Source: Polaromonas vacuolata (GTDB taxonomy: Bacteria; Pseudomonadota; Gammaproteobacteria; Burkholderiales; Burkholderiaceae_C). From it: a DNA stretch of 64,000 nucleotides. The DNA is taken from assembly GCF_012584515.1 (NCBI RefSeq), contig NZ_CP051461.1:1979501-2043500 (forward strand). Direction: 5' to 3'. The position numbers were made by a program, and so were the translations under genes. Shown in pieces: positions 12,838-25,397 of the stretch (position 1 is the first letter of the stretch; the number at the start of each line of letters is the position of its first letter). Below the pieces are notes generated by a model. The model worked only from the letters and a program-made list of their open reading frames with translations, did no database searches and was not told where the DNA came from.

Positions 12838-13470
12838 TTATTCTATTGCGCACAATTCAAATGACAATGACTGCGCGCGCGCCACCGCACCAACAAAACC
12901 CGCTGGCAATTGCAGATCAGAAAATTGACACGATTGAATTTTCAAGTCCAAAGCAAAGCGCCATTCTTCCAAACCCAGCCCAAGGCATTTCAAGCCAGCT
13001 TCGATGCGCGTCCACTCATGGGAGAAAGCGATCATTTGTTCCGCCGCTTTATTACTCGCTATACGCTTATAGGCGGCTTGGCCCAGATAGTCTTTTGCCA
13101 GCGTGTGCCAATCGAAATCTTGCGGTACTTGCATCAAGTCGACTCCAACCGGCGCTGACCAGTCCAGCACCGCAATAGATAAACCCGGTTGGTGGCTAAA
13201 AGATAAAAACAGCTTAGGCAAAGGAGCCGGCATCGAAACGTGCAGCGGCTGACCAGCAATAGAAGCAATAGAAATTGCGCTTGGCGCAAGTTTGTAAAGC
13301 GCCGCTAAAAATGCTGTGACTGCCGCACGCAGTTCAATCCGTGCGACCTCACGCTTAGCGCTTTTGGGCACAGCCAGACTAATCACCAACAGATCTAGAT
13401 CAGGTTTAACAGCCTCAATCTGCGCAATCGATAAGGGCCAAGAATGAACGGTTAGCCGCTCTACAAGCAT
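12838..13470 (-). CDS. 4'-phosphopantetheinyl transferase (Sfp type)
   Basis: 210-residue enzyme that moves phosphopantetheine from CoA to the serine of carrier-protein domains. The family motifs are visible: PVGVDL (metal-binding Asp) in the middle and WTRIEAGLKCLG about 55 residues later, matching (W/F)xxxEAxxK. I prefer the ATG at 13470, 14 bases after the NRPS stop, over a TTG at 13521 that would overlap the NRPS. Being the next gene on the strand, it is almost certainly co-transcribed with the NRPS and primes its carrier domain. Confidence 0.85.
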   Translation of the reverse strand: MLVERLTVHSWPLSIAQIEAVKPDLDLLVISLAVPKSAKREVARIELRAAVTAFLAALYKLAPSAISIASIAGQPLHVSMPAPLPKLFLSFSHQPGLSIAVLDWSAPVGVDLMQVPQDFDWHTLAKDYLGQAAYKRIASNKAAEQMIAFSHEWTRIEAGLKCLGLGLEEWRFALDLKIQSCQFSDLQLPAGFVGAVARAQSLSFELCAIE

Positions 13471-13484
13471 GGCCGCCGAGAGAT

Positions 13485-16400
13485 TCAAAATTGCGCCGGA
13501 GCAGCCGGGCAACCGCGCCAAGCACTGGCCGCAGGAATCACTTCACCCTTCATGACCAAAGTCAGCGCACCTAATTTTGCGTTGTCCACGACCACAGCGC
13601 TGTAGAGCACGCAGCTGCGAGGCCCCATATAAACGCGGCTGCCAATAGTGACGTGATCGACCTTCATGACTCGGTCTTCAAACAAATGGGTTTGCGGGCA
13701 AGCCAATGCATTCAATTCGCTGTAGTCGCCAATTTTTACGCAATCGAACTCAGTGATATCGGTGGTGTCAAGATAAACGCCGCGCCCAATCTTGGCGCCC
13801 AACAAGTTTAGAACTAGCGGCAGCCACGGCGTGCCGCGCAGATAGCGCAAGAAGTTAGGCACGGCAATTCCTTCATAAAGATTGGTCACCGCTTCTGAGA
13901 ACCAGACGAACGGTGTCCACATCGGTACGCTGCGTTTTTTGTAGCGAAACACCAGTAACCACTTGAGCATGGCAACGAAGAAGAACGTACCTATGCCGTA
14001 GGCCAAGCCAGCAATTGCCAAGTAATAAACCACGCGAATCCACAAACCATCAGAGGCCAAAGGCATGACGCCCAGCACCACAGTAAAACCCACAGCGATC
14101 ACAAAGGCGTGCGGCGTGATGATGCGAAACGCCTCCACCGTGCCGCGTCCTAAGCGGCGCAATAACGATGGATTAAAGGTCAGGTGCTCATCGAAACATT
14201 GCACTGCTTCGCGCGCTGGCAAATTAATAGGCGGCGAGCCCAACCATGTATCACCATCGCGCATGACGGCGTTGGCTGGTGCCGAGGAATGCACACCAAT
14301 CAATACATTTTCTGGCAATAAAGTGCCATCAGGAATGTAAGCACCGTTGCCAACAAAGCTACGCCGAGAAATCACGGTCGGCCGTAGCGTCATCCAGCCC
14401 GCATCGATTTTCTCGTCGCCCAGCATGACGGCGTCCGCAATAAAAGACTCGTCACCAAGCGTGAGCATATCGGGCACCAAGCCGAGCGCGGTGGATATTT
14501 CTGCGCCTCGGCCGACTTTGGCACCCAATAATCGATACCAAAATGGCGCGTAAACAGTGGCGTAAACGCCGTGTAAAACGCTAAGGCTGGACTCTTGAAT
14601 CTGGTTCACCAGCCATTTGGCGCAATACAAATTGCTGTGCACCGGCCAGCTCCCAGGTTTCATACGCGGCAACACTAGCCAACGCACACCAGCCGAGAGC
14701 AACACGGTGCAGACAATTAACAAAGCCGTGGCGGGAAAAGCCAGCAAAAAGTATTTCACCAGTTGCTCAGTCACAGCGCCTTGCGGGATTGGCGCTAAAC
14801 CATCCGAGCCGTCGATTAAATCTATCAGTATGAAACTGGGGAAAACCGGCAGAAAAAATAACGTGGTGATGACAAGCGCACCGCACAGAAAAAATATCGC
14901 TTCAAGCACATGTCGCAGCTTTGAGACGACTGGGCGCGGCTGGTTCGAAGCGGGATCAAAAGCCCCAATATCAAGCGCCGGTGAGCCACTAAACACACGC
15001 CCTGCCCCAACTTGCATACCGTCGCTCAAGGCCGATTGACCCTCTAAATGGCCGAGTGCGCCAATCTCAGTATTGCCTTCTAAGACCGCGTAAGAAGACA
15101 CGTTCGCGTCAATTCCAATTTTGATAGTCCCAAGATGCAGCACACCGTGCTCAACCCGCGCATTTTCAAAATTAACTGCATTGCCAATACTGGCACCGTC
15201 GCCAATCTCTAAAAGATCGGCGACACGCAAAGTACCAGAACCAATCATCACATCCCGACCAATCTTCGCGCCCAGTGCGCGCAGCCACCAGGTGTAGAGT
15301 GATGAGCCGTTAAGCATATAAGTCGGCGCCGCCTCAATCATGCGGTCGGCCAACCACCAACGGTAATAAGTCAGGCCCCAAAGTGGATAACGGCCCGCCT
15401 TTAATCTGCCGGCAACCATCCATTTAGCCGCAATCGCCAGCACAAAAGTCAACAAGGTCGCGAGCAAAAAAGCACCAGTCGATGCGGCAATCGCAAAGGT
15501 GATGGACTGGTCTGCGTCGCCGGTATAAAAGTGATAGGTGAAAAACGGTGCTAACCACTGGGCCATGTGCAACGTCACCAACAGCGGTATGACTGCTGCC
15601 TGGGCTAAGCCGCAACGCCAGCGCTTTAAAGCTGACGGCGGCGTCCATTGGGTATTGACGGGCGGCAGCGCATCATGATCCAGCGCCAGCACTTGAGCAA
15701 TCCGGCCAATGATGCGATTTTGATAGATGTCACGCACCGTGACATGTGCAAAACGCGCATCGGCTCGCAAGGCCGACGCTAGCCTTGCTGCAAATAAAGA
15801 ATGGCCGCCAAGATCAGTGAAGAAATCTGCATTGCGGCGTATCGGTTGCCCAGGAAAAAGCTTCGCCAAAGCGGAAAACAAGGCTTTTTCAGTATCCGTA
15901 TCGGGCTGATCCGAGGCCGTCACATCACCAACAAATTGCGTCAGCGGACGCGCTTTCAAAGCCTTGCGGTCAATCTTTCCTGAAGTCAGGCGCGGCATTT
16001 CAGTGAGTAACTCAAACACACTCGGCACCATGTAGTTGGGTAAGGCAGAGGCTAAAGCGCTGCGCAACCAGGCCACGGCGGGTGGTTGATCAATGCTTTG
16101 CGGCACGAGAAAAGCCAGCAATTGATCAATACCATTTTCAGAGCGCAGCACAACGGCAGCCGCACCAACACCGGCTTGCTGAGACAGCACGGCCTCGATC
16201 TCACCTAGCTCAACCCGAAAGCCGCGAATCTTGACCTGGTCGTCAGTGCGACCCAAACACTCCACAAGTCCATCGGGCAATATGCGCGCTAAGTCACCGG
16301 TTCGGTAAAGTCGGCCCGGCTCAGCACTCGGAGCCCAAGGATTGAGCAGAAACTTGTCGGCAGTTAAATCCGCCCGACCGAGATAACCCTGAGACAAGCC

Positions 16401-17489
16401 AGGCCCGGTAATACACAGCTCACCGACCTCGCCCATAGGCATGATTTGCAGCGGCCCTTCAGCAGTGGCGTTAATCACCAGCATGCCGTAATTGGGCAGT
16501 GGCCGGCCAATCGTGACAGGGGTGTCCGGATAAAGCTCAGCCAAGCTTGCCGATACGGTGGTTTCCGTAGGGCCATAGGTATTAAAAAGTTGCCGGCCTT
16601 CACGCCACCAGCGTTTAACCAGCGGCTGAGGACAAATTTCGCCGCCCAAATTAATCAAGCGCAGGCTGCTGACATCGCGATTAAACAAAGCCAGCAGCGT
16701 CGGAACTGCATGCAGCACAGTAATTGCATTGTCTGACAAGGCCAGCGGTATTGCTTCAGGATCAGACGCAATTTGACTAGGCGCGATCCAGACGCTGGCG
16801 CCGACCAAGTAACTAATCCATATCTCTTCAAAAGACATGTCAAAGGCCAATGAAAAACCTTGGTAGACACGATCGCTTGCGGTCACACCAAGCAAGGCAT
16901 TTTCACTGCGTAAAAAGTGGCAAATACTGCCGTGGTTAATGACTATGCCTTTGGGTTTGCCGGTAGACCCTGAGGTGTAGATGACATAAGCGGGATGACT
17001 GGGCAATAAATCTACGCGTCTGCGCAAGTCCAGTTGAGACTGCTCGCTCAAAACTTCTGCAGTCCAGACCGGACAACTGCATTCGTCAAGTCGGGGCTTA
17101 AAAATTTCGCAGCTCACAACTCCAGCCGCATTAGCATCCAACAGACAGACCAAAATCCGCTCAACAGGCGTATCGGCGTCAAAGGCTAACCAAGCTGCAC
17201 CGGCCTTGCTAATGGCCAGTTGCATGACCAAAAGCTCAATACCGCGCGGCAACCACAGGCCGATAATTTGACCCGGCACAATCCCCGAAGCTATCAGGTG
17301 TGAAGCTGCCAGGTCGGCCCTATTGTTGAGTTCTAAATAACTCAAGCTGTAGGAGCCAAATAACAACGCCGTCTGTGCTGGCGTGCGCTCAGCTGTCGCT
17401 TCAAACAAATCGGCTAAGGACTCGTCACGAATTAACTCAGGACGGTGTTGACCTTGTAGAAAACTGTCGACTAAAACTTCATTTCTCAT
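13485..17489 (-). CDS. Membrane NRPS, Pls-like: adenylation, carrier, six membrane segments and three left-handed-helix domains
   Basis: 1334 residues. Residues about 20-515 are an adenylation domain (YTSGSTGKPKG 171-181, FDMSFEE 216-222, NTYGPTET 303-310, YRTGDL 395-400, GKIDRK 504-509). A carrier domain follows with LGGHSL and the pantetheine Ser at 564. There is no condensation or thioesterase domain. Instead three repeats follow, each two membrane segments (about 628-690, 860-935, 1122-1175) plus a soluble left-handed beta-helix module opening with LGAK(I/V)GR at 739, 988 and 1229. This is the layout of epsilon-poly-lysine synthetase (Pls) and the NRPS C-terminal-domain family. By alignment to GrsA, specificity positions read D217, M218, E221, H260, I279, L281, T304, V312, S313, K505; the acidic E221 would suit a basic amino acid, but that is inference. 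A PPTase follows directly. Confidence 0.9.
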   Translation of the reverse strand: MRNEVLVDSFLQGQHRPELIRDESLADLFEATAERTPAQTALLFGSYSLSYLELNNRADLAASHLIASGIVPGQIIGLWLPRGIELLVMQLAISKAGAAWLAFDADTPVERILVCLLDANAAGVVSCEIFKPRLDECSCPVWTAEVLSEQSQLDLRRRVDLLPSHPAYVIYTSGSTGKPKGIVINHGSICHFLRSENALLGVTASDRVYQGFSLAFDMSFEEIWISYLVGASVWIAPSQIASDPEAIPLALSDNAITVLHAVPTLLALFNRDVSSLRLINLGGEICPQPLVKRWWREGRQLFNTYGPTETTVSASLAELYPDTPVTIGRPLPNYGMLVINATAEGPLQIMPMGEVGELCITGPGLSQGYLGRADLTADKFLLNPWAPSAEPGRLYRTGDLARILPDGLVECLGRTDDQVKIRGFRVELGEIEAVLSQQAGVGAAAVVLRSENGIDQLLAFLVPQSIDQPPAVAWLRSALASALPNYMVPSVFELLTEMPRLTSGKIDRKALKARPLTQFVGDVTASDQPDTDTEKALFSALAKLFPGQPIRRNADFFTDLGGHSLFAARLASALRADARFAHVTVRDIYQNRIIGRIAQVLALDHDALPPVNTQWTPPSALKRWRCGLAQAAVIPLLVTLHMAQWLAPFFTYHFYTGDADQSITFAIAASTGAFLLATLLTFVLAIAAKWMVAGRLKAGRYPLWGLTYYRWWLADRMIEAAPTYMLNGSSLYTWWLRALGAKIGRDVMIGSGTLRVADLLEIGDGASIGNAVNFENARVEHGVLHLGTIKIGIDANVSSYAVLEGNTEIGALGHLEGQSALSDGMQVGAGRVFSGSPALDIGAFDPASNQPRPVVSKLRHVLEAIFFLCGALVITTLFFLPVFPSFILIDLIDGSDGLAPIPQGAVTEQLVKYFLLAFPATALLIVCTVLLSAGVRWLVLPRMKPGSWPVHSNLYCAKWLVNQIQESSLSVLHGVYATVYAPFWYRLLGAKVGRGAEISTALGLVPDMLTLGDESFIADAVMLGDEKIDAGWMTLRPTVISRRSFVGNGAYIPDGTLLPENVLIGVHSSAPANAVMRDGDTWLGSPPINLPAREAVQCFDEHLTFNPSLLRRLGRGTVEAFRIITPHAFVIAVGFTVVLGVMPLASDGLWIRVVYYLAIAGLAYGIGTFFFVAMLKWLLVFRYKKRSVPMWTPFVWFSEAVTNLYEGIAVPNFLRYLRGTPWLPLVLNLLGAKIGRGVYLDTTDITEFDCVKIGDYSELNALACPQTHLFEDRVMKVDHVTIGSRVYMGPRSCVLYSAVVVDNAKLGALTLVMKGEVIPAASAWRGCPAAPAQF

Positions 17490-18187: not shown

Positions 18188-18674
18188 ATGAAACCACGCT
18201 TTAAATCTAAAAGCTGTCGATTAATAGCCAACGTTTTATGTCTAGCGGGATGGCTGGCCTCTACCACTACAACTGCCAATGCTGACTTAATTGAACAAAT
18301 AAAGCAGCGTGGAATCATTGTGGTTGGCGTCAAAAAAGATGTTCCGCTGTGGGGTTTTAAAAATACCACTAATGGGCGTATAGAGGGACTTGAGCCGGAT
18401 CTGGCAGAAGACATTGCGCGCCGACTTGGCGTTAAGTTGGAACTTCGTGGCCTAAGCACGGATGAGCGCATACCCGCGTTACAAAGCGAGCGAATTGACG
18501 TCTTAATCGCAACCCTGTCGCATACGCAAGAGCGTGAAAAATTAATGACCTTAGTCGCGCCAGACTACTACGCATCTGGAGTAAGTGTTTTGGCTAAAAA
18601 GCGCGATAAATTTAACGTGTGGGATGATTTAAGAAACCGGCGAATTTGCAGCCGCAGAGGTGCTTTTTATAACC
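18188..18674 (+). pseudogene. Polar amino-acid binding protein, 5' part, split by IS30 element
   Basis: N-terminal part of a family-3 extracellular solute-binding protein. The signal peptide ends about ANADL, followed by KQRGIIVVGVKKDVPLWGF and RIDVLIATLSHTQER, which are lobe-1 hallmarks. The reading frame runs to FYN and then enters the transposon, giving a premature stop at 18691. Removing the element and one copy of the ACC target repeat joins this part in frame to 19767-20188: 487 + 422 = 909 bases, 303 codons, restoring FYNRLITVKYG. A binding protein of this type feeds polar amino acids to an ABC permease. Confidence 0.88.
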
Positions 18675-18699
18675 CGCGGATTCAAGTCTGAAGTGCAAC
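18675..18699 (+). repeat. Left inverted repeat of the IS30 element
   Basis: Twenty-five bases beginning CGCGGATTCAAG and ending TGAAGTGCAAC; pairs with the right end with mismatches only at positions 1, 13 and 14. Confidence 0.9.
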
Positions 18700-18775
18700 T
18701 TTGAAACTAACCGGACGGGTGGGTGAGATGTGAGAGCATCCAAGCTTCCCGACCACCAAGTCAAAGTTGCCCAGA

Positions 18776-19732
18776 ATGATTTACACACACCTCACCCGTG
18801 ACGAACGTTACCAGATTGCAATCCTCGCCAAAGCAAACTTCAATCAAAGTGAAATTGCAAAAATGATGGACCGTGATAAATCGAGCATCAGCCGTGAGTT
18901 GCGTCGTAACCGCGGTCTACGAGGCTATCGCCCTAAGCAGGCAAATGACAAAGCCCAAGAACGTAGACTTGCCTGCGCCAACAGTCCTAGAGTTGCTGAC
19001 TCGACATGGGCTGTAGTGGAGGAAAAGTTGGCTGAGGCTTGGAGCCCCGAACAAATCAGCGGCCACCTCGAAGCTCGATGCCAACCCGGTGTTAGCTATG
19101 AGAGCATTTACCAGTACATCTACGCTGACAAACGCGCGGGCGGCAGCTTGCATAAAACACTGCGTTGCCAGAAGACGCGAAAAAAACGCAGCAGCGGCCG
19201 TGAACGGCGCGGCACCATCTCTCGCCAGGTCTCAATAGAACTGCGACCCGCCATCGTGCTTGAGCGTGCGCGCTTTGGCGACTGGGAGGCTGATCTGGTG
19301 ATTGGTGCCGGGCAGAAGCAAGCCCTAGTGACGATTAACGAGCGTGTCTCTCGGTATTCAATAATTTTCCACGTGCCATTCAAAACAGCGCAAGCCGTAG
19401 GGGACGCGTTAATCACTTTACTTAAACCATTCGCTCATTGCGTGCACACACTCACGACAGATAACGGCAAGGAATTTTCTCAGCATGAACGAATAGCTTC
19501 TGCGCTGAGTGCAGATTTCTTTTTCGCCCATCCATACGCCTCGTGGGAGCGTGGGGCAAACGAGAATATGAACGGTTTGATTCGCCAGTTTTTCCCAAAG
19601 GGGATGCGCTTTAATTGCATCACCGACGATGACATTGCTTTAGCGATGCACAGGCTCAATCATCGTCCTAGAAAATGTTTGGGGTATCGAACACCGCATC
19701 AGGTTTTTATGGAAGAGTTAAAGTCCAACTAA
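18776..19732 (+). CDS. IS30-family transposase
   Basis: 318 residues from the ATG at 18776 (a TTG three codons earlier is in frame). The N-terminal helix-turn-helix region reads LTRDERYQIAILAK and KSSISRELRRN, typical of IS30. The DDE catalytic core is visible: Asp in DWEADLVIG, Asp in TTDNGKEF, and Glu in WERGANENMNGLIRQFFPKG. The length is normal and the frame uninterrupted, so the enzyme is likely functional. It binds the inverted repeats at both ends of the element. Confidence 0.95.
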   Translation: MIYTHLTRDERYQIAILAKANFNQSEIAKMMDRDKSSISRELRRNRGLRGYRPKQANDKAQERRLACANSPRVADSTWAVVEEKLAEAWSPEQISGHLEARCQPGVSYESIYQYIYADKRAGGSLHKTLRCQKTRKKRSSGRERRGTISRQVSIELRPAIVLERARFGDWEADLVIGAGQKQALVTINERVSRYSIIFHVPFKTAQAVGDALITLLKPFAHCVHTLTTDNGKEFSQHERIASALSADFFFAHPYASWERGANENMNGLIRQFFPKGMRFNCITDDDIALAMHRLNHRPRKCLGYRTPHQVFMEELKSN

Positions 19733-20987: not shown

Positions 20988-22675
20988 TTGAAGAACGCTA
21001 AATCGTGTGAAATCTTAAATTGCAGACGATTCGTCACCATTTTCAGATTTTTGTTTAGCCCAAGTTTTTTTCTTAGCGTGCTCGCACTAAGCCTGCTTGT
21101 GATGGTGAGGCCATTAATGGGCGAGACTTTGGCACAAATCAAAAAACGTGGCGAAATCATAGTCGGCGTAAAAACTGACTACCCACCATTCGGTCAGCTA
21201 ACGCCTGATGGGGAGATGCAAGGTTTAGAGCACGACTTGGCACAAGACTTAGCCAATCGAATTGGTGTGAAGCTAAAACGCGTGAGTGTGACGGGTGCTA
21301 ACCGATTACAAAAACTCGAAGAAGGCACGGTTGATATTTTGATTGCTACTTTGGGCGACACCGCTGAGCGCCGCAAAGTTAGTGCCTTAGTTGAACCCGG
21401 TTATTACCAGTCTGGCGCTACTTTACTGGCACGTCCACTTTCAAACTTAAAGAGCTGGCAAGACCTTCAGGGTAAAACCGTATGTATTTCGCAGGGCGGA
21501 TATTTCAACGCTTCAATGGCGCAAATGTATTTATTTACGCCACTCACATTTGACACGCCAGGCCAAGCCAAGCTCGCCTTACGAGATGGGCGTTGCATCG
21601 GCTATTTGTTTGACAACATAGCAGCATGGACAGAGTTACAAAAGCCTGAGTGGTCGGATTATCAAGTTTTATTGCCCGCAGAAAAAGTCGTGACCTGGCG
21701 ATTGCAATGCCAAGATCAGCTCAAACAAACGCCTTAGGACAAGTCATAAGCGACACCGTTATAGATTGGCATAGAAACGGATTTTTATTGGCATTAGAGA
21801 AAAAATGGAAACTTTCTGCATCGCCTTATCTCAGTAATATGCACAAACTGTGGTCACAAAAAACTGCTGACGAAACGGCCTATATATGCACAAAAAATAA
21901 GCATGGTTTTTTTCCTGTGCAATGTCAAACCCGCAGCTTGGTTGCAGCACACACACAAGAAAGCAAAGCCACGCGACAAATAGGTTTATATTTTAAAGAA
22001 TTCAGCGGTATAGACCTAAGCTTTATCTATGACGACTATGACAGACAACGATTTTTAACAGGTCTTGAAGGCACTGTTTTCTTAATGCTCTCAACACTTA
22101 TTTTAAGTTTACTTTTAGGAATAGGTGGCGCATTCGTTGTGGAGTCGAATCAAAAAATTTCTAAATATATGGTGCAATTAATCTCTGTTTATGCAGGTAT
22201 GACGCCACCACTTTTACAAATTTATCTGCTTTTATTTGGTGTCGGCAGTCTTTTGAGAGAGTTGTTTGAGCTGCAACTGAGCACATGGTTGGTTGTCGTA
22301 TTTTGTCTAAGTCTTTACACCGCTTCTTCAGTCATGCGTGCAGTGCTGGAATCATGCCAACATTTACGTATTGACAGACCAAATTTTCGCCTGCGGGTGA
22401 GCTCTCACCTGAGCATTGCACAGGCCTACGAAGGCGCGGCTGGATCAATCAGCGCATCCTTAATTAACGTCTCAAAAGCAAGCATGATCGCTTCAGCCAT
22501 TGCAGTCCCCGAGCTGCTCTCTGCGACGACGTCAATCATGTTGGACAGTGGCAATGTCAGCGAGATGATGAATACTTTACTCGTGACCTTCGTCGTACTC
22601 ATCGCCTTAACCAATCGCTTGATTAAAACCTTAGAAAATAAACTGCGGGAAAAAGCGGCAGAAATTTATGAGTGA
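20988..22675 (+). pseudogene. Binding-protein/permease fusion of a polar amino-acid ABC importer, frameshifted
   Basis: Residues about 35-300 form a family-3 binding domain (KKRGEIIVGVKTDYPPFG, DGRCIGYLFDN) and the rest a His/Glu/Gln-type permease (about 5 membrane segments, EGAAGSISASLINVSKASM near the coupling loop). The frame breaks near 21697-21699: VVTW runs into LQCQDQ and stops at 21737, while the shifted frame continues IAMPRSAQ... to 22675. Adding one base (TGGCG to TGGGCG) gives 1689 bases, 563 codons, and restores WAIAMPRS, matching WSIALRS of the neighbouring binding protein. It is either a true pseudogene or a sequence error. Confidence 0.82.
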
Positions 22676-23306
22676 GATGTCAGCGTTAATCAAATGGACA
22701 CCCTTTTTATTGGGTGGCTTTGTCTGGAATATTGTGATTGGTGTTTTAGCCATGACGATAGGCTCGTTACTTGGCGTAGTGCTGGCCAGCTTGCGTCTGT
22801 CAGATAAAAAATGGCTCAGAAACATCAGTTATGGACTGACAACGCTGAGCTGCAATGTGCCCACTATTGTGTTTCATTTTTACTTGGTGATTATGCTGCC
22901 CAGCGATTGGGCGATACCGGGACTTGAGTGGACGATTAATTTTCCCGCTTGGCTAAAAGCATCCTTGGCCTTAGCTATCGCCGTATTGGGTTTTACTTCT
23001 AATAATTTAATGATTGCCCTGCGTCAATGGCGTGCTGGGAATCACGCCGCAGCGATGCTGTTTATTCCCGCATGGATTAACTATATGCTGATCATCATCA
23101 TGGCATCTAGTACAGCGTCAATTATTGGTGTTAGCGAAATACTTAGTCGCTGTAATATCGTCATCTCTGCAAGTAATTACGGCAGTGATGGCCGGCTGAT
23201 GCTACCGGTATATTTGTATGTGAGTATGATTTTTTTAAGCTTTTGTTATCCACTCAATTGCTTGATGAAAAAACTCCAGTCATACCTTCGCGAAAAGTAC
23301 GTCTAA
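22668..23306 (+). CDS. Polar amino-acid ABC transporter permease
   Basis: 212-residue inner-membrane permease with about five hydrophobic segments. It is the second membrane half of the importer whose first half is fused to a binding domain upstream. The coupling-loop region reads RQWRAGNHAAAMLFIPAWINYML, a weak match to the canonical EAA loop. It overlaps the fusion gene by 8 bases, so the two are co-translated. No ATPase gene follows, so the system would need one from elsewhere. With its partner frameshifted, it is probably non-functional at present. Confidence 0.78.
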   Translation: MSEMSALIKWTPFLLGGFVWNIVIGVLAMTIGSLLGVVLASLRLSDKKWLRNISYGLTTLSCNVPTIVFHFYLVIMLPSDWAIPGLEWTINFPAWLKASLALAIAVLGFTSNNLMIALRQWRAGNHAAAMLFIPAWINYMLIIIMASSTASIIGVSEILSRCNIVISASNYGSDGRLMLPVYLYVSMIFLSFCYPLNCLMKKLQSYLREKYV

Positions 23307-25218: not shown

Positions 25219-25294
25219 TGGTGGGTCCTGCGGGGGTCGAACCCACGACAAACGGATTAAAAGTCCGCTGCTCTACCAACTGAGCTAAGGACCC
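25219..25294 (-). tRNA. tRNA-Lys (anticodon TTT)
   Basis: Cloverleaf with acceptor stem GGGTCCT/AGGACCC, D-arm AGCTCAGTTGGTAGAGC, anticodon loop CTTTTAA, T-arm GTGGGTTCGACCCCC, discriminator A and an encoded CCA end (25219-25221). Decodes AAA/AAG. It is identical to the neighbouring tRNA-Lys except in the acceptor stem. Confidence 0.97.
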
Positions 25295-25321: not shown

Positions 25322-25397
25322 TGGTGGGATGTGCGGGGGTCGAACCCACGACAAACGGATTAAAAGTCCGCTGCTCTACCAACTGAGCTAACATCCC
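25322..25397 (-). tRNA. tRNA-Lys (anticodon TTT), second copy
   Basis: Same body as the copy at 25219-25294, but the acceptor stem is GGGATGT/ACATCCC, so all base pairs are kept through compensated changes. CCA is encoded (25322-25324). It lies 27 bases upstream of the other copy on the same strand, so the two are probably one transcript. Confidence 0.97.

Follow-up and report, generated by a model that had tools for sequence, protein, structure and literature searches.

In this study, we describe a pair of minus-strand genes in Polaromonas vacuolata (contig NZ_CP051461.1) that encode a nonribosomal peptide synthetase (NRPS) of the Pls/PosA family and a 4'-phosphopantetheinyl transferase (PPTase). 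The window, that is the whole stretch of DNA analysed, comprises 64,000 nucleotides (positions 1,979,501 to 2,043,500 of the contig), and the coordinates in Table 1 count from its first letter. The synthetase belongs soundly to a known family, of which PosA of Acinetobacter baumannii was characterised in 2023. We estimate at about 85% the probability that family membership, grouping with PosA and delta-poly-L-ornithine as the predicted product all hold together.

Gene pair and domain architecture

The stop codon of the synthetase occupies 13485-13487 and the ATG of the PPTase lies at 13470, which leaves 14 bases between the two genes. A longer form of the PPTase with a TTG start (12838-13521) overlaps the synthetase open reading frame (ORF), and the PPTase residue numbers used below follow that TTG start. 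The genes next to the synthetase are those of the PPTase and of an HpaI aldolase. In a genome scan, 440 relatives of the synthetase were confirmed and the best 80 (66-76% identical) were kept. We describe the unit as consisting of two genes because hardly any other window gene recurs beside the synthetase in these relatives. When 14 window neighbours were compared with the neighbours (at least 120 residues) of the 80 relatives, three grouped with genes of the relatives, each at one or two loci. Five stretches from related genomes were compared as well, four of them on short contigs; the synthetase was matched in all five and the PPTase in four, and the 17 other window genes went unmatched. The flanks of the same-genus copies likewise share no other tested window gene apart from the pair.

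Table 1. Features of the synthetase and PPTase genes, with positions in the window
Feature	Position	Strand	Basis
Single-module NRPS of the Pls/PosA family, 1334 residues (predicted delta-poly-L-ornithine synthetase)	13485..17489	-	TIGR02353, PosA code, tree
Linked PPTase, 210 residues	12838..13470	-	PF01648, adjacency in relatives, co-occurrence
Adenylation domain, about residues 9-512	15954..17465	-	TIGR01733, AMP-binding, alignment of 9-416 to PosA 8g95
Residues 217-313, with all specificity positions but the tenth (D217 M218 E221 H260 N280 G282 T304 V312 S313)	16551..16841	-	PosA alignment
Codon of carrier serine S564 (DLGGHS), predicted phosphopantetheine site	15798..15800	-	Serine in 86/86 aligned proteins
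C-terminal domain (TIGR02353), residues 629-1329, with three pairs of hydrophobic segments	13503..15605	-	Profile, hydropathy
Beta-helix module C1, residues 701-860	14910..15389	-	Self-alignment against shuffles; Pfam LbH_EIF2B below cut-off
Beta-helix module C2, residues 951-1100 (N1048 invariant)	14190..14639	-	Self-alignment; Hexapep 28.5 bits, cut-off 27
Beta-helix module C3, residues 1186-1334 (T1220, E1247, Q1266, H1268, D1272 invariant)	13488..13934	-	Self-alignment, conservation
Codon of H1268, proposed catalytic base	13686..13688	-	Only histidine of the C-terminal domain kept in 40/40 members; in C3

The C-terminal domain matches TIGR02353, the NCBIfam equivalog-domain model named 'Pls/PosA family non-ribosomal peptide synthetase', at 819.5 bits against a cut-off of 423.1, and the match spans profile positions 2-695 of 695, that is, the whole length of the model. 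The adenylation model TIGR01733 is matched at 382.2 bits, over its cut-off, and the best solved relative of the synthetase is the PosA domain 8g95 (505 bits, residues 9-416). The carrier domain is recognised by its D-L-G-G-H-S motif and by NRPS profile matches running across the motif; a carrier-domain model was not reported by the Pfam scan at E 0.001. That scan found AMP-binding, AMP-binding_C, Hexapep and, below its cut-off, LbH_EIF2B, and no condensation or thioesterase domain was among its matches. Hydropathy over 19-mers places the hydrophobic pairs of the C-terminal half at residues 632-650/674-692, 865-883/914-932 and 1128-1146/1157-1175; two 19-mers of the adenylation domain (75-93 and 112-130) pass the same simple threshold too. 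The three beta-helix modules align with one another at pairwise Smith-Waterman scores of 110, 80 and 78, where the best of 500 shuffles reached 50, 43 and 48, so that 0/500 shuffles attained the observed score for any pair. This layout is the one described for PosA and Pls (PMC10522769, PMC9205021; these papers and PMC8117764 are cited throughout from the part of their text that was available).

Much of this had been read from the letters in an earlier note on the same DNA. It had described a synthetase of 1334 residues with one adenylation and one carrier domain, lacking condensation and thioesterase domains and followed by three repeats of two membrane segments plus a beta-helix module, with a PPTase starting 14 bases past the stop. 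Both ORFs, the profile matches, the carrier serine, the hydropathy and the module self-alignment bear out this description. Its family call, a Pls-type membrane NRPS probably making a cationic homopolymer, agrees with the full-length TIGR02353 match, with the acidic residue E221 and with the three modules. Two copies of the motif LGAK(I/V)GR stand at residues 739 and 988, as had been given, and the third begins at 1230 rather than 1229.

Pocket code, relatives and predicted product

Residues 213-314 align to PosA (8g95) without a gap, which places D-M-x-x-E at 217-221 as in the published numbering of PosA. With K505 as the tenth specificity position, the pocket code reads D-M-E-H-N-G-T-V-S-K and is identical at all ten positions to the published Acinetobacter PosA code. 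The earlier note had read D-M-E-H-I-L-T-V-S-K; its I and L are residues 279 and 281, each one off, and the true fifth and sixth residues are N280 and G282. The acidic E221 that it had placed in the pocket is present in the PosA alignment.

PosA makes delta-poly-L-ornithine, and its adenylation domain prefers L-ornithine over L-lysine by more than 160-fold (PMC10522769). The structures 8G95-8G98 are of this domain, and three of the four contain a bound ligand (L-Orn, D-Orn or L-Lys); the contacts D217, M218, E221, T304 and S313 are all kept in the pocket of the window protein. Activity was abolished in PosA variants of D217 and E221 and fell 33-fold in T304A and 183-fold in S313A, and M218A raised the use of lysine nearly tenfold; position 218 (Met versus Ala) has been linked to chain length, Ala being of the Pls type (PMC10522769). 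Because the code equals that of PosA, and in view of these variant and preference data, L-ornithine is the predicted substrate.

The code was followed through 86 aligned proteins, comprising the window protein, the 80 best relatives and five loci from relatives of the host, among which L010 and L013 look like repeats of L034 and L051. Most of the 80 come from betaproteobacteria; one is from a Pseudomonas and one lies on a contig labelled Eremiobacterota. The best-matching named relatives are from Polaromonas and Rhodoferax, so that the host is probably a betaproteobacterium like the Comamonadaceae. The exact code is found in 84 of the 86; L058 has S at position 304 and L011 is incomplete there. 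Since the 80 were picked by similarity, this uniformity holds for the close group and not for the whole family.

A wider set of 41 rows (the window protein, 22 of the 85 loci and 18 more distant loci, L111-L128) contains other codes. D-L-E-D-I-G was read in Azospirillum (L120), Rhizobium (L121) and one further genome, D-A-E-S-I-G in Streptomyces pls (L122), a Rhodococcus and two further genomes, D-F-E-type codes in another Rhodococcus, Streptomyces, Streptantibioticus, Paenarthrobacter and one further genome, and D-M-E-H-N-G-T-V-T-K in a Sphingomonas (L124). The tree holds 40 of these rows, the fragment L118 having been dropped, and was made by a quick method with no bootstrap and with several long outer branches. 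In it, the 27 rows with D-M-E-H-N-G-(T/S)-V-S-K, including the window protein and that of A. baumannii, fall on one side of a branch with a Shimodaira-Hasegawa-like approximate likelihood ratio test (SH-aLRT) value of 100; the variable position is T in 25 of them and S in L058 and L111. The D-L-E-D rows are the nearest group outside, and the D-A-E-S rows are placed elsewhere.

The likeness to PosA thus extends over domain order, the ten-residue code, the tree group and 53.8% identity along residues 9-1331, where the full-length comparison was made with the A. baumannii record L119 and the code comparison with both PMC10522769 and L119. Because of the shared code, the tree group and this identity, delta-poly-L-ornithine is a better prediction than epsilon-poly-L-lysine. 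The earlier note was right about the Pls family, about the kind of system and in its stress on the PPTase, but the nearest characterised protein is PosA and not epsilon-poly-L-lysine synthetase, a closer prediction of the product is possible, and more is known of the system than the note implied.

The family is patchy in its distribution, and the synthetase is a patchy trait in the genus. The TIGR02353 cut-off was passed in 6 of 61 related genomes (some of them incomplete drafts) and in 8 of 370 genomes drawn from the class (at least 90% complete), the host being counted in each case, and among the same-genus genomes G001-G036 in 4 of 36 besides the host (G003, G010, G019 and G021). The copy in G003 matches as two separate pieces (L011/L131), which represent either a broken gene or an assembly error. 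In L104 (2810-7554, labelled Candidatus Eremiobacterota), a synthetase with the PosA code groups with an Oxalobacteraceae protein (SH-aLRT 98); gene transfer and a binning error are both possible.

The linked phosphopantetheinyl transferase

The linked PPTase matches PF01648 at 29.9 bits (cut-off 25) and keeps the catalytic aspartate, D128, and the motif glutamate, E174. At the second metal acid of G-x-D-x-E it has M, and at the lysine of W-x-x-K-E-A it has I. An adjacent PPTase gene is present in 61 of the 80 best relatives, right after the synthetase in 60 and before it in one (L104). The 60 downstream genes lie on the same strand as the synthetase and either overlap it or start within about 110 bases. 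The PPTase of L104 is of a generic kind, with both the motif K and the acid E, and lies upstream of its synthetase with a 4-base overlap.

We aligned 66 copies, namely 64 linked PPTases (60 from the scan and four from related genomes, two of these four being apparent repeats), the window copy and that of L104. All 66 share the aspartate, the tryptophan and the motif glutamate, and 65 have the second lysine. None of the 64 linked PPTases has K before the glutamate or E two residues past the aspartate, and neither does the window copy. In comparison, among 38 unlinked PPTases, 36 have the second metal acid and 27 the motif lysine. The absence of the lysine is weakened as a mark of the linked kind, given that 11 of the 38 unlinked enzymes also lack it, and the second metal acid separates linked from unlinked PPTases better.

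A profile built from the linked copies gave matches above 200 bits in five of the 61 related genomes, each of which holds the synthetase. Of the 6 genomes that carry the synthetase, 5 thus give strong matches, as against 0 of the 55 that lack it. The sixth, G043, has only a 41-bit PPTase match about 40 kb away. In the 55 genomes without the synthetase, some of the 61 being incomplete drafts, no match above 75 bits was found. High scores of the linked copies are expected from the way the profile was built, and the absence from genomes without the synthetase is the informative part. In the light of this linkage and co-occurrence, we consider it probable that the linked PPTase activates the S564 carrier, and the pair may be self-sufficient, as the earlier note put it.

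The A. baumannii record has no annotated PPTase adjacent to posA, in contrast to the window, and PosA was loaded with Sfp in vitro (PMC10522769). The Rhizobium synthetase L121, which belongs to the same family and has a different pocket code, does have a PPTase 8 bases downstream, but that enzyme keeps G-V-D-I-E and W-V-A-K-E-A; no PPTase is annotated next to the Azospirillum synthetase L120. The D-L-E-D code of these two has been counted among the unique signatures (PMC10522769). Among the matches listed in the literature searched, no title concerned a link between a PPTase and a Pls/PosA-type synthetase, one paper that came up deals with a different system, and neither 'PPTase' nor 'gene neighborhood' was found in the available part of PMC10522769.

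Polymerisation, alternative explanations and meaning

In 40 C-terminal domains compared, the most distant of which is about 25% identical to the window protein, the polar or aromatic residues Q630, W712, N1048, T1220, E1247, Q1266, H1268 and D1272 are identical throughout, and Streptomyces pls (L122) keeps H1268 and the seven others. A sequence search of solved structures with the C-terminal domain gave 32 matches at E <=1, of which the best had E 0.0011. Most are to hexapeptide acyltransferases and gamma-carbonic anhydrases, and no solved polymerising domain was among them. Histidine is the usual base of hexapeptide acyltransferases. Because H1268 is the sole invariant histidine and lies in C3, we propose that the C3 site (H1268 with D1272, Q1266 and E1247) may alone be catalytic, a proposal to which we give slightly less than an even chance, and that C1 and C2 might hold the chain or have a structural part. 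Kito et al. reportedly studied the three tandem domains by mutation in 2013, and the PDAP paper mentions a few universally conserved residues in C1-C3. Among the titles listed, none reports catalytic residues of the C-terminal domain, but that study or the supplement of the PDAP paper may already have noted or tested the residues given here. For PosA, a model has the three beta-helices packed together in a single domain of approximate threefold symmetry (PMC10522769). Epsilon-poly-L-lysine synthetase joins the loaded amino acid to an acceptor that diffuses freely, with no covalent attachment of the chain at any stage, and a review has called the mechanism of the polymerase not completely understood (PMC9205021).

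We read the two genes as a unit that makes a cationic homopolymer with isopeptide bonds, for which delta-poly-L-ornithine is the likeliest identity. The adenylation domain, having a code identical to that of PosA, would activate L-ornithine with ATP and the amino acid would be loaded on the phosphopantetheine arm of S564, an arm attached, as linkage and co-occurrence suggest, by the PPTase encoded just downstream. The membrane-bound C-terminal domain, made of three fused beta-helix modules, would join the loaded ornithine to the side-chain amine of an acceptor, either free ornithine or a growing chain held non-covalently, and of its three pseudo-equivalent sites the conserved one around H1268 would be catalytic. 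In its fullest form, the proposal is that in Burkholderiales and their kin the synthetase travels with a dedicated PPTase subfamily with a rebuilt metal site (mostly D-x-M/L/V in place of D-x-E, and without the motif lysine) that serves one carrier, and that the polymerase is a fused pseudo-trimer of beta-helix acyltransferase modules with the H1268 site as its only active one. This combination we advance tentatively, and it is rather more probably wrong in some part than right in all.

Several observations weigh against this interpretation. The Sphingomonas protein L124 shares nine of the ten residues of the code and stands outside the PosA and D-L-E-D rows, on a long branch, so that a near-identical code can occur in other parts of the family. 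PosA itself shows modest activity on L-lysine and low-level activity on L-Arg and L-His (PMC10522769), which leaves the product a prediction. Nor is the link with a PPTase essential. For 19 of the 80 best relatives the flanking DNA examined holds no PPTase. For A. baumannii posA, none is annotated adjacent and none was detected by profile in the 4-kb flanks. Among the distant loci L111-L128, some of which have short flanks, a PPTase was seen only in Rhizobium (by profile) and Sphingomonas (by annotation), and both of these carry the ordinary lysine. An acid and a lysine that are common in other PPTases are missing from the linked one, which might be inactive or altered, and the argument for a single active site is one from conservation only.

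If lysine were polymerised, the enzyme would be an epsilon-poly-L-lysine synthetase, or Pls proper, with which it has family and layout in common; E221 is suited to a basic side chain, and the modest use of lysine by PosA points the same way. However, residue 218 is Met and not the Ala that serves as a criterion of Pls, the identity to the annotated Streptomyces pls product is 32.9% against the 53.8% for the A. baumannii protein, and the D-A-E-S rows do not stand with the window protein in the tree. The neighbours are a PPTase and an aldolase, whereas an M1 peptidase gene follows pls in Streptomyces; a peptidase gene beside pls has been described in the actinobacteria Streptomyces and Corynebacterium (PMC8117764), although this is not a strict criterion. 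We regard this explanation as very improbable, and a different homopolymer, built from another diamino acid or from arginine, as marginally more so. The family does have pockets for diaminopropionate, diaminobutyrate and beta-lysine, and one member activates arginine modestly, but all ten code positions here are those of PosA and the contacts that mattered in the published mutants are kept.

A further explanation concerns the PPTase and is compatible with our reading of the synthetase: the PPTase-like neighbour may be degenerate or repurposed, and the carrier activated in trans. The change of the second metal acid to M and of the motif lysine to I in the window copy would fit this, as would the 19 loci without a linked PPTase; 17 of those genomes have a weaker, generic-looking match elsewhere (at most 74.5 bits). 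We nevertheless think it unlikely, because the aspartate, glutamate and tryptophan are invariant and the second lysine nearly so, and because the host genome (3.84 Mb, one contig) has no further PF01648 match apart from a 140-residue frame at 64.6 bits, which is taken as AcpS. In addition, the human PPTase also reads G-I-D-I-M in the alignment and is an active enzyme, so that replacement of the metal acid alone need not mean inactivity.

Elsewhere in the window, a family-3 solute-binding protein of 167 residues is encoded at 18188-18691 (+) and a related one of 249 residues at 20988-21737. An IS30-family transposase gene (18767-19732, +) begins 75 bases past the shorter one, which may have been shortened by the insertion. 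Two overlapping ORFs at 21650-22675 (341 residues) and 22668-23306 (212 residues), both on the plus strand, have no Pfam match at E 0.001, and two tandem tRNA-Lys genes with an identical anticodon lie at 25219-25294 and 25322-25397 (-).

Many bacteria with PosA-like codes have already been noted (PMC10522769). If the present reading is true, P. vacuolata and its relatives, with 440 relatives confirmed and the exact PosA code in nearly all of the aligned ones, join the predicted makers of poly-ornithine. The system offers concrete handles: only one substrate is predicted, the probable activating enzyme is encoded next door, and one histidine is a candidate for catalysis. Moreover, the unusual PPTase, if active, may serve as a carrier-specific tool. 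Since chemically made delta-poly-L-ornithine inhibited three yeasts (PMC10522769), an antifungal role for the polymer is worth considering.

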